Below are positions 5,500-7,990 of a stretch of 64,000 nucleotides of DNA, in pieces. Source of the DNA: Pelagerythrobacter aerophilus. Its GTDB lineage: Bacteria; Pseudomonadota; Alphaproteobacteria; Sphingomonadales; Sphingomonadaceae. The position numbers and the translations under genes are program-made. Positions within the stretch are counted from its first letter, which is position 1. Each line of letters opens with the position of its first letter. The stretch spans positions 1 to 64,000 of the forward strand of contig NZ_QXFK01000017.1 in NCBI RefSeq assembly GCF_003581645.1, given 5' to 3'. The notes beneath the pieces were generated by a model. That model did not search any database and was not told the origin of the DNA. It saw only the letters and a program-made list of their open reading frames with translations.

Positions 5500-6795
5500 G
5501 TGACACCCTTCCCCTGGCCAGACCTGTTGATCATCGCGGGACTTATCGTGCTCAACGGCGTGTTCGCCATGTCCGAGCTCGCCATCGTCTCGGCCAAGAC
5601 CGCGCGGCTTCAGGGGGCAGCCGACAAGGGCAGCCGCGCCGCGCAGACCGCGCTCGCGCTGGCGGCCGATCCGGGCAAGTTCCTCTCCACGGTGCAGATC
5701 GGGATCACTCTGGTCGGGATCGTCGCCGGTGCCTATTCGGGCGCCAGCCTGGGCGGGCCCGTGGGCGAGCGGCTCGAGGCGCTGGGGCTGCCCGCCCGGT
5801 ACGCCGACGAGGCCGGTTTCGCAGTGGTGATCGCGCTGACGACCTATGCCAGCCTGGTGGTCGGCGAGCTGGTGCCCAAGCAGGTCGCGCTGCGCGCCGC
5901 CGTGCCGATCGCTCTGACCATGGCGCGGCCGATGGCGGTAATCGCGCGGATCGCGGCGCCGCTCGTCTGGTTGCTCGACACGTCCTCCGGCCTGCTCATA
6001 CGCATCCTTGGGGTGCGGTTGGGCGGTCAATCGAGCGTAACGGCGGAGGAACTGCATATGATCTTCGCCGAAGCCACGCGCTCGGGTGTGCTCGAGGTCA
6101 AGCAGCACCATATCCTCGCGGGCGTTGTTCGCCTCACCGATCGCCCCGTGCGGGAAGTGATGACGCCTCGGACCGAACTCGACTGGGTTGACGCCGATGC
6201 GGGTGAGACCGAGATACGCGCCGCCATCGAGGCCAGCCCCCATTCGCTACTGCCGGTCGCCGAAGGTTCGCCCGACCGCGTGATCGGCGTGATCAAGGTC
6301 CGTGACGTGCTTGCGCGGCTCGTCGCGGGCGAGACGATCTCCTTGCGCGCGATTATGCGGCAGGCCGAAGTCGTGCCCGATCAGCTCGACGCGATGGACG
6401 CGCTGCGCGTGCTGCAGCGATCGGAAGTCGCGATGGCGATGGTGCACGACGAGTACGGCCATCTCGACGGGATCGTGACTCCGGCCGATCTGCTGACGGC
6501 GATTGCGGGCCACTTCGCGAGCGACCGCGATGACGGCGATCGTCCGGGCATGGTCGAGCGGTCCGACGGCTCGCTGCTCGTCTCGGGCGCGCTGTCGGCC
6601 GACGACCTCGCCGACCGGCTGCGGATCGAATACGGCGAGGACCGCGAGTTCGCGACCGTCGCCGGCTATGTCCTGTCGGTGCTCAAGAACCTGCCGCGGG
6701 AAGGGGAGAGCTTCACCGACCAGGGCTGGTGCTTCGAGGTCGTCGACATGGATGGCCGCAAGATCGACAAGGTGCTGGTGAGCCGGGAGGAGTAG
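5500..6795 (+). CDS. CNNM/CBS-domain hemolysin-family transporter (CorC/TlyC type)
   Basis: A 431-residue inner-membrane protein with an N-terminal CNNM/DUF21 domain of about four membrane segments (LLIIAGLIVLNGVFAMSELA at the start), a tandem CBS pair around residues 200-330 (PVREVMTPRTELDWVDAD, RVIGVIKVRDVLARLV, MVHDEYGHLDGIVTPADLL) and a C-terminal CorC_HlyC domain. Homologues are linked to Mg/Co efflux or membrane-damage tolerance; 'hemolysin' is a historical label. The start is GTG at 5500, the only start that keeps the first membrane segment complete. It stands alone and is followed by the palindromic element. Confidence 0.88.
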   Translation: MTPFPWPDLLIIAGLIVLNGVFAMSELAIVSAKTARLQGAADKGSRAAQTALALAADPGKFLSTVQIGITLVGIVAGAYSGASLGGPVGERLEALGLPARYADEAGFAVVIALTTYASLVVGELVPKQVALRAAVPIALTMARPMAVIARIAAPLVWLLDTSSGLLIRILGVRLGGQSSVTAEELHMIFAEATRSGVLEVKQHHILAGVVRLTDRPVREVMTPRTELDWVDADAGETEIRAAIEASPHSLLPVAEGSPDRVIGVIKVRDVLARLVAGETISLRAIMRQAEVVPDQLDAMDALRVLQRSEVAMAMVHDEYGHLDGIVTPADLLTAIAGHFASDRDDGDRPGMVERSDGSLLVSGALSADDLADRLRIEYGEDREFATVAGYVLSVLKNLPREGESFTDQGWCFEVVDMDGRKIDKVLVSREE

Positions 6796-6803
6796 GAGTC
6801 TCT

Positions 6804-7018
6804 GTTTCCGCACAGGCATCCGCCTGTGCGATGTCCTCGGCCCTGCCGGGCCTGCGGGGGCGCAGTCGCGCTTGCGGTCGGCTGGCGCCGACCGGACCTT
6901 TCCCAGCCATGGCTGTCAGGCGATGTTCGGTCCCGCAGGAACCGCAAGGCCGACCGGCCGCCCGCAGCGACCGAAGGGAGCGAGGATATCGCACGCGCGG
7001 ATGCGCGTGCGGAAAAAC
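6804..7018. repeat. Long imperfect palindromic element with two covarying terminal hairpins
   Basis: The whole stretch between the CNNM gene and bamF is an inverted repeat centred on the palindrome CAGCCATGGCTG at 6904-6915. The outermost arms are GTTTCCGCACAGGCATCC... on the left and, read from the other strand, GTTTTTCCGCACGCGCATCC... on the right. Each arm carries a perfect 9-bp hairpin with a 4-nt loop: CGCACAGGC-ATCC-GCCTGTGCG at 6809-6830 and CGCACGCGC-GGAT-GCGCGTGCG at 6990-7011. The hairpins differ at two base pairs but both changes are compensated. Similarity between arms continues inward (TCCTCG, GCGGG, GACCG). It lies between a plus-strand gene end and a minus-strand gene end, so it may also serve as a bidirectional terminator. 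Confidence 0.8.
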
Positions 7019-7026
7019 ACAAACCC

Positions 7027-7458
7027 TTATCCCTGCGGGATCACCGCTTGCGCGAACTGGCCGTCACCCTCGGGGGCGGCGACGATGTCGCGGGTGACGC
7101 TACCCTTGGCGACCGTGTTGGTCTCCGGATCGCCGACTTCGGTGCGGATGCTCGGTTCGGCCGTCCCGGCACGGTCGAGCATGCTGGTTTCGACCGCGCT
7201 GCGCGGGGCAGGGCCGCCGAACAGAGCCTCGAGCGCCTGTTCGCCGGCGGTTTCCTCGGACGGGCGGGGCGCGCCGGGAGCGGGCGGGACCAGATTGAAA
7301 TCGGGCGGCACGACCAGCGGGGCCTGGCGCTGCACGGCGAACTCGTCGGGCCGCTCGCGGCCGAGGATGCCTCCGGTGCTGCCGCAGGCGCCGAGCATTG
7401 CGCCCGCACCGGCGAGAAGGACGAAGGTGGCCGATTTACGCCCAGGGGTAAAAGTCAT
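7027..7458 (-). CDS. BamF-like lipoprotein (DUF3035)
   Basis: A 143-residue predicted outer-membrane lipoprotein. The start at 7458 gives MTFTPGRKSATFVLLAGAGAMLGAC with a lipobox LGAC at Cys25. The mature N-terminus has RPDEFAVQRQAPLVVPPDFN followed by LVPPAPG, the motif shared by DUF3035 proteins and the N-terminus of BamC; in Caulobacter such a protein (BamF) is part of the beta-barrel assembly machine. The rest is low-complexity and probably disordered. It begins one base after the lspA stop codon, so translation is likely coupled, and LspA itself would process its signal peptide. The BamF role is inferred from the family. Confidence 0.8.
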   Translation of the reverse strand: MTFTPGRKSATFVLLAGAGAMLGACGSTGGILGRERPDEFAVQRQAPLVVPPDFNLVPPAPGAPRPSEETAGEQALEALFGGPAPRSAVETSMLDRAGTAEPSIRTEVGDPETNTVAKGSVTRDIVAAPEGDGQFAQAVIPQG

Positions 7459-7459
7459 C

Positions 7460-7990
7460 TCAGCTCTCCGCGGCGCCAGGCGCCGACTTGTGTTCGGGTG
7501 TTGCCTCCTTGTCGCGCACGAAGAAGGCACGGGCAAGGATTATCAGGACGCCGATCGTAATCGCGGCATCGGCGATGTTGAAGATCAGGAACGGGCGGAA
7601 CTCGCCGAAGTGCAGATCGGCATAGTCGATCACGTAGCCGAGCTCGTAGCGGTCCTTGATGTTGCCCAGCGCGCCGCCGAGGATCAGCGAAAGGCCGGCG
7701 ATCTCGCCCAGCGCCTTCTCGCGCAGCATCCACACGGTCACGACGAGCGCGATCAGGCTGGTCACGCCAACGAGAATCCAGCGCATTTCCATCGAATCGG
7801 CCTGGAACATGCCGAGCGAAACGCCGAAGTTGTAGGTCAGCCGGAAATCGAAGAACGGCAGCAGTTCGACCACGTCGCCGCGCTCCATCGCGAGCGTTTG
7901 GGTGACGTAGCCCTTCATCGCCTGGTCCACCAGGAACAGGACGATCGCCCCCGCGAAGCCGATCAGGCGGTATCGGACAAGCTTGCTCAT
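7460..7990 (-). CDS. lspA: Lipoprotein signal peptidase (signal peptidase II)
   Basis: A 176-residue inner-membrane aspartyl protease that cleaves prolipoprotein signal peptides after lipid attachment. Four hydrophobic segments are visible. Family motifs are intact: TYNFGVSLGMF near residues 61-71, and the two catalytic aspartates in YVIDYADLHF and IFNIADAAITIG. Its start overlaps the ileS stop codon by 4 bp (ATGA), the classical ileS-lspA arrangement of proteobacteria, and the DUF3035 lipoprotein gene follows immediately. Start assignment is firm because of the overlap and the hydrophobic first segment. Confidence 0.96.
   Translation of the reverse strand: MSKLVRYRLIGFAGAIVLFLVDQAMKGYVTQTLAMERGDVVELLPFFDFRLTYNFGVSLGMFQADSMEMRWILVGVTSLIALVVTVWMLREKALGEIAGLSLILGGALGNIKDRYELGYVIDYADLHFGEFRPFLIFNIADAAITIGVLIILARAFFVRDKEATPEHKSAPGAAES

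Follow-up and report, generated by a model that had tools for sequence, protein, structure and literature searches.

The element at 6805-7015 of the window, the whole stretch of 64,000 nucleotides of Pelagerythrobacter aerophilus DNA analyzed here, is one copy of a repeat family with a mosaic hairpin form. The unit of the family is a half-element of about 90 bp, a chain of four hairpins (A-B-C-D) whose loops and linkers are conserved. The stems of these hairpins covary strongly, and the fold has strand polarity. Our best explanation, to which we give about an even chance, is that the element belongs to a mosaic, non-autonomous family of REP/BIME-like repeats in the Erythrobacteraceae lineage, and that such repeats are copied or move in the form of folded single-stranded DNA.

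Structure of the window element

The element is an imperfect palindrome of 211 bp to which no strand is assigned, and it consists of two inverted halves and a variable centre. It is located between the gene for a CNNM/CorC protein (5500-6795, + strand; PF01595, PF03471, CBS) and a convergent gene for a DUF3035 protein (7027-7536, − strand), presumably the one known as bamF. An earlier note had described this intergenic space as a large imperfect palindrome of 215 bp (6804-7018) centred on CAGCCATGGCTG (6904-6915). The palindrome and its centre, which lies in the variable middle and likewise has no strand, were found as described, and the extent is better given as 6805-7015. The outer arms (6805-6839 and 6981-7015, 35 nt) are 86% complementary and the inner arms (6841-6878 and 6941-6978) 71%. 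Each end folds, as the note had claimed, into a perfect 9-bp hairpin with a 4-nt loop, ATCC at 6809-6830 and GGAT at 6990-7011. Read in the same sense, the two stems are CGCACAGGC and CGCACGCGC, and their comparison bears out the claim of two base-pair differences that are both compensated. The smaller hairpins inside (B, C, D, D', C', and B') had gone unlisted.

The covariance model of the family, built from 23 halves in the ABCD sense, matches the left half (6805-6894) with 91.6 bits and the right half (6928-7015) with 80.5 bits. The folding sense, D'C'B'A', is the opposite strand, that is, the − strand for the left half and the + strand for the right half. On the − strand, the left half forms hairpin A' (6809-6830; 9-bp stem, loop cGGATg of the d(cGNABg) type), hairpin B' (6839-6852; stem 5, loop GGCA, GNNA type), hairpin C' (6860-6871; stem 4, loop GACT, outside both the DNA and the RNA loop rules), and hairpin D' (6875-6894; stem 8, loop GCCA, GNNA type). 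On the + strand, the right half forms hairpin D' (6928-6944; one internal mismatch, loop GCA, GNA type, paired by eye), hairpin C' (6948-6959; stem 4, loop GACC, outside both rules), hairpin B' (6967-6981; GC-GA-CC-GAA-GG-GA-GC, with a tandem GA/GA mismatch and the GNA-type loop GAA), and hairpin A' (6990-7011; 9-bp stem, loop cGGATg, d(cGNABg) type).

The folding energy of the element is far below that of shuffled sequences (z = −7.15 with RNA and −5.66 with DNA parameters; none of 200 shuffles was as low in either case). Sites with a perfect stem of 8 bp or more around a loop of 3-5 nt number 11 in the 64-kb window; 3 lie inside the element, and two of the others fit with either of two loop lengths. 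A role of the window copy as an intrinsic terminator was rejected, as no hairpin followed by a T run was found in the window at 6500-7300.

A dispersed family of half-elements

With the element as query, blast returned matches in all 7 genomes of the genus. Half-elements were collected by eye and with a small hairpin parser; 34 places satisfied the parser rule, one of which (G005:C2) looks like a chance match, and 28 were complete enough for export. At an E value of 0.01, the covariance model gave 60 half-element matches in 7 of the 7 genus genomes, including 7 in the window's own genome (G000). The suggestion in the earlier note of a mobile REP/BIME- or MITE-like form thus holds as far as a dispersed, palindromic, multi-copy repeat is concerned, whereas the 215-bp palindrome is not the unit: the real unit is the half of about 90 bp, which occurs singly, in inverted pairs as in the window copy, or in direct tandem.

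In a sample of the GTDB family, searched at E 0.001 with up to 73 candidates scored per genome, at least 25 of 59 genomes and at least 24 of 58 genera had matches, up to at least 27 per genome, and 34 of the 58 sampled genera had no match among the candidates listed. In a class-wide draw with up to 22 candidates scored per genome, at least 3 of 190 genomes matched, two from the same family and one outside it, the latter weakly (E 8e-4). Given these limits, the lack of a match carries little weight in either sample. Searching plasmid and phage collections with blastn gave no match, a result that leaves room for diverged copies. No description of the repeat family was found in the open-access literature searched. 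Within the accessible part of the RepRanger paper (PMC12306157), Erythrobacter cryptus is named in a count table only, and the accessible part of PMC4741004 contains nothing relevant to the family.

Tandem arrays include four halves in G003:C15 and three in G046. The former (G003:C15:61807-62366, locus L017) consists of four right halves with a period of about 155 bp behind a gene that looks by eye like dnaA. A lone half lies between apparent rpmH and rnpA genes (named by eye) at three loci (L003, L024, and L025). The 3' flank of the CNNM gene, taken as 620 nt from the stop codon and searched at a lenient cut-off of E 0.1, carries at least one half at 38 of 80 loci and both orientations at 18. 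For 72 loci in five other genomes, a simple choice of ORFs by G+C phase placed 30 copies between codirectional, 23 between convergent, and 9 between divergent genes, with 10 undetermined.

Stems covary and take many sequences

The earlier note would have been refuted by a single-copy element whose arms do not covary in relatives. The result is the reverse: copies are multiple, and the stems covary strongly both at homologous loci and between loci. In the alignment of 23 halves, 89.9% of the cells pair, and among 64 halves from the 80 CNNM loci 93.7%. The latter figure leans upward because these halves, like those of further alignments, were aligned with a structural model. The covariation score of the 23-half alignment was 0.402 compared with 0.125 after shuffling, and none of 500 shuffles reached it. 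Two of five covariation measures on this alignment did not stand out from the shuffled values, namely the number of pairs with changes at both positions (13, shuffled 10.2; 17 of 500) and that of further pair types (21, shuffled 20.1; 200 of 500). Among the 64 CNNM-locus halves the score was 0.494 against 0.134 shuffled, 21 of the 26 pairs were changed on both sides (17.6 shuffled), and control structures slid along the alignment scored 0.031-0.045.

The counts for hairpin A were repeated without the model by anchor, GAGGA-linker, and further scans. With 163 anchors picked by loop and linker alone, 55 perfect 9-bp stems were obtained, and shuffling of the arms gave a mean of 2.6. After 62 anchors with at least 4 mismatches were left out of the mismatch and loop tallies, the loops of the remaining 101 were ATCC (58), CTCC (38), and GTCC (5).

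Within single genomes (5 genomes), the A, C, and D pairs are 84-95% Watson-Crick. Hairpin A stems in these genomes differ at 0.37-0.44 per site, compared with 0.15-0.26 in unpaired columns, an excess that is overstated, as two outer types of A fall in the same columns. Hairpin D stems behave like those of hairpin A in the 5 genomes, and hairpin C stems are no more divergent than unpaired columns in G014 and G059. In G014, a listing of perfect stems only shows copies whose flanks and loop are nearly identical, whereas their seven-base stems have many different sequences. In the 56 halves from the CNNM flanks, the 5' arm of hairpin A (9 columns) takes 32 different sequences, and it takes 20 in the 41 gap-free rows.

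Recent spread and ends of the copies

Near-identical copies at different loci show that the family has spread recently. Two copies are 97.5% identical over 244 positions in G014, 93.4% over 258 positions in G021, and 90.5% over 231 positions in G059. The left end of the element is T-rich and the right end A-rich, and ends of the type TTTTTGTTT...AAACAAAAA recur among copies. No target-site duplication was seen by eye at the compared sites.

Occupied and empty sites were compared by eye at two loci. At one, G000, G004, G005, and G006 carry an element whose start lies in the T run of an intrinsic terminator; G002 retains a degenerate remnant, and in G001 and G003 the terminator is present and the element absent. 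At the other, between a tRNA gene and obg, the element is found in G000, G004, G005, and G006, with an apparent decayed right end in G001-G003. At one and the same locus, the left and right B modules appear by eye to be swapped between G000 and G006.

Other sequences accompany some copies. Six loci of G014 (L179, L175, L181, L184, L186, and L189) contain short end fragments, TTTTTGTTT..GCCTCAAGCG together with the mirror form, and by eye these are stacked beside complete copies and not simply nested. At L259 (G004), L012, and L029, the element has beside it a distinct long palindromic repeat, which is of the CCTCCCCAT...ATGGGGAGG type.

Mismatches reveal the strand of the fold

For 247 distinct halves, the mismatches within stems were compared between the two strands. 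GA/GA is the commonest 2x2 internal mismatch in the D'C'B'A' sense (27 distinct hairpins from 60 of the 247 halves), and TC/TC was found in none of the 247. AA/GC (9 distinct hairpins) and AA/CC (8) come next, and some of these other types are register artefacts of the scan. Among single internal mismatches flanked by Watson-Crick pairs in the same sense, G.T outnumbers A.C by 71 to 28, with 41 other mismatches and 23 gap cells left uncounted. This excess runs against the bias expected of the model, which was built in the opposite sense. When related stems are counted once, the numbers are 43 and 26 (p = 0.053), which is weak as a lone test. The strand of the structure is a new element in the description of the repeat family.

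Loop sequences follow a rule on the same strand

In the D'C'B'A' sense, the c-g-closed loops of 486 hairpins (283 distinct) are dominated by GNAB (179), GNNNA (84), GNA (58), and GNYA (12). The GNRA loops typical of RNA are rare, with 5 among the 486 hairpins, and 73 c-g tetraloops fit no class. When the opposite strand is read, GNAB accounts for only 2 within the ten commonest classes (482 of the 486 hairpins). The loops of hairpin A' in the 247 halves are mainly GGAT (134), GGAG (45), and GGAC (19), and 21 halves lack a clear hairpin here. A c-GGAA-g hairpin A' was found in none of the 247, one copy having GGAA inside a six-base loop. A scan for any loop beside the GAGGA linker gave 189 hairpins with GGAT (84), GGAG (38), GGAC (12), and 140 c-g GNAB loops in all, and GGAA in none.

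In the title of Nakano 2002, as cited in the accessible part of PMC5090098, d(cGNNAg) and d(cGNABg) are named as stable DNA tetraloop motifs. The part of PMC8373063 available to us restates these motifs, with B standing for C, G, or T, and presents GAAG as a GNRA variant that occurs naturally in RNA. According to the accessible text of PMC4686876, GNA and GNNA mini-hairpins of DNA are extraordinarily stable and resist nucleases. By analogy only, the GNNNA pentaloop (G...A) may be grouped with these stable DNA loops. The C' loops GACC (108 of 247 halves) and GACT (32) lie outside both the DNA and the RNA rules, as do several B' loops (TTAT, TTCA, and TTTA). Taken together, the loop sequences follow the rules for very stable single-stranded DNA hairpins more closely than those for RNA.

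Hairpins outside the model matches at the same loci served as background. A loop of this kind on either strand occurs in 24 of 152 distinct background hairpins with a stem of at least 7. Of the 64 distinct hairpins with a tetraloop, 18 show GNAB on one strand. By eye, these 18 belong mostly to other palindromic repeats: 6 are tagged with CGTC or TGTC, 6 belong to a variable-stem family with GGAG or GGAC loops, 2 are lone A'-like hairpins, and 4 are others. Because the background GNAB hairpins lie mostly in other repeats, the loop rule may extend beyond the repeat family.

Two of these groups can be described further. The tagged hairpins with GNAB loops were seen at L017, L020, L160, and L229, and in a pattern scan of the fetched loci 11 of 15 CGTC/TGTC-tagged hairpins had c-g GNAB loops. 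In another repeat family of the same genomes, a 9-bp stem whose sequence is free carries a GGAG or GGAC loop and stands between mostly constant flanks, GGCCGGTGC..CGCAA before it and GCACGCAA after it. Its sites include L130:1419-1440 and 1531-1552, L144:1530-1551, L190:2106-2127, and L201:2438-2459 and 2505-2526.

Candidate trans-acting partners

Known transposase and reverse transcriptase families were compared with copy number, copy-rich genomes being the 11 family genomes with at least 9 matches (G008, G013, G014, G019, G020, G021, G038, G040, G046, G052, and G059). Y1_Tnp matched 1 of the 7 genus genomes, 13 of the 59 in the family sample, and 1 of the 11 copy-rich ones, and both the single genus match and the single copy-rich match have an in-frame stop. 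The former is a partial match in the window's own genome (G000:C18:30965-31183, L032). Reverse transcriptase (RVT_1) was present in 17 of 59 family genomes and 3 of 11 copy-rich genomes. Y2_Tnp was present in 2 of 59 and 0 of 11, respectively, and none of 14 control genomes matched, which limits the weight of the Y2 result. As their presence does not track copy number, Y1/RAYT, RVT_1, and Y2 were rejected as partners. CsrA is known to bind GGA loops; it was rejected because it matched none of the 59 family genomes, compared with 3 of 14 control genomes.

A proposed folded single strand of DNA and its rivals

The match to the DNA loop rules, the scarcity of GNRA, and the polarity of the fold together favour folded single-stranded DNA. 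What is kept would then be a single-strand fold of defined polarity and not a double-stranded sequence: loops and linkers are conserved, the stems are free in sequence provided that pairing holds, and G..A types account for many of the loops and for the most frequent internal mismatches. We propose that the element is copied or moves as a folded single strand of DNA, perhaps one at the replication fork, and that some enzyme outside the searched Y1, Y2, and reverse-transcriptase families recognizes this folded strand. A position behind genes more often than between divergent ones could be one of little harm. We infer that copying is enzyme-driven and that the element needs no host function. Several observations count against this reading: Y1, Y2, and RVT_1 do not track the copies, target duplication was not seen by eye, and the GACC/GACT and several B' loops fit neither rule. 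The presence of the element in 38 of 80 CNNM flanks would fit equally well with long-standing vertical inheritance of an element that serves the host.

The strongest rival, which we regard as unlikely, is a transcribed structured RNA, a chain of hairpins in 3' untranslated regions that would guard mRNA ends, limit read-through, or be bound by a protein at the GGA and GACC loops. Covarying stems combined with conserved loops are a classic RNA signature, copies lie behind genes and at one locus behind a terminator, and strand polarity and tolerance of G.T and G.A are RNA properties as well. Tandem G.A and G.T(U) pairs are stable in RNA too, and GAAG counts as a GNRA variant, so the case for DNA over RNA turns mainly on the scarcity of GNRA. 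It is this scarcity (5 of 486 hairpins), with c-GGAA-g not seen, that argues against the RNA. In addition, Rfam 15 covariance models gave no match to the window element, the two sub-threshold matches in the window both lying outside it, and at 8 other loci of the family they returned one tRNA only. The absence of CsrA from all 59 family genomes, and of matches among the candidates listed from 34 of 58 sampled genera, also speaks against it. A transcript of the full element would read one of the two halves in the other sense, and the half between apparent rpmH and rnpA (L003, L024, and L025) lies in the ABCD sense of rpmH. Single-stranded DNA is likely the working form rather than RNA.

A REPIN or BIME proper, moved by a RAYT or an IS200/IS605-type Y1 transposase, appears improbable to us. 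The inverted pairs of hairpin units in intergenic space and the Y1_Tnp match in G000 agree with it. The RAYT-type transposase to which the earlier note had pointed was not borne out, however, as copies are present in 7 of 7 genus genomes and Y1_Tnp in 1 of 7, and in 1 of 11 copy-rich family genomes, each time with an in-frame stop. This explanation is weakened, and a shared past transposase that is now lost is possible.

We see very little likelihood that there is no selection on folding and that the palindromes are kept perfect by template switching at the fork and spread by recombination between copies. Correction of quasi-palindromes is expected to yield compensated changes, and the apparent exchange of B modules between G000 and G006 would fit. 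Such correction should act alike on both strands, however, and leaves unexplained both the GA/GA and TC/TC counts (27 and 0) and the confinement of loop types to one strand, a strand bias with which it is hard to reconcile. Moreover, the stems of hairpins A and D vary more than the loops and linkers do (hairpin C stems do not in 2 of 5 genomes).

E. coli BIMEs have reportedly been proposed as double-stranded sites for nucleoid, gyrase, or segregation factors, and the inverted arrangement and intergenic dispersion would suit such a binding site, but it is just as poorly credible here, because a duplex site should keep its sequence and the stems are free (32 hairpin A arms in 56 CNNM-flank halves), and because the mismatches are polar.

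Comparison with known systems

The origin and spread of transposase-less palindromic repeats in alphaproteobacteria is described as an open question in the accessible part of PMC3733652. For this question, the repeat family with folded single-stranded DNA as its favoured form offers three handles: strand polarity, a physically meaningful loop rule, and genomes with recent near-identical copies. Folded DNA and folded RNA might be separable in sequence data by GNAB/GNYA/GNA versus GNRA loops, and GA/GA versus TC/TC mismatches could give the strand of a fold.

Close in form are REPINs and BIMEs with RAYT transposases, as described in the available parts of PMC3116915 and PMC2817692. Like them, the element consists of multi-copy, intergenic hairpin units, often in inverted pairs, and is apparently non-autonomous. 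It differs in that no RAYT or Y1 transposase tracks the copies in the carrier genomes, each half is a chain of four hairpins, and loops and linkers are conserved instead of stems. No unpaired GTAG tag was noticed by eye beside hairpins A-D.

CGTC-REPs (Di Nocera et al. 2013, PMC3733652) are presented, in the part of that paper available, as one hairpin tagged CGTC, with a stem nearly always starting with two A-T pairs and a CCA-like tail. On that account, they share with the element an alphaproteobacterial host, intergenic positions downstream of genes, a prevalence of inverted dimers, stems of 8-9 bp, loops of 4-5 nt, and the lack of a dedicated transposase, since Y1, RVT_1, and Y2 do not track copy number here. 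Unlike a CGTC-REP as described there, the element has four hairpins without a tag, sequence-free stems, and additional GA/GA and GNNNA motifs. Its hairpin A stems are G+C-rich and begin mostly with CG or GG, and the conserved neighbour 5' of A' is GAGGA and not a CGTC, TGTC, or CCTC tag. We set the element apart from REPIN/BIME and CGTC-REP because no RAYT tracks its copies and it lacks the CGTC tag.

BOX/RUP, RIME/ABC, ERIC, and similar repeats are likewise mosaic or palindromic intergenic repeats of about 100-200 bp, and they occur in different hosts. We know of no strand-specific loop rule reported for repeats of this kind. With the very stable DNA mini-hairpins (Hirao; Nakano 2002; PMC4686876, PMC5090098, and PMC8373063), as far as the accessible parts of these sources go, the element shares c-g-closed GNA, GNNA, and GNAB loops; the former are in-vitro molecules, whereas the latter is a genomic repeat family that also has GNNNA and GACC loops not named there.

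A broader and more tentative idea is that one class of bacterial repeats without a transposase is selected as folded single-stranded DNA, with the ultrastable loops cGNABg, cGNNAg, and cGNAg on one strand only, free stems, and a shared enzyme. If true, the same rule in CGTC-REPs and in the further repeat would point to one enzyme that would both recognize folded single-stranded DNA and spread alphaproteobacterial palindromes. The element itself is a new variant of palindromic interspersed repeat that works like REP/BIME.
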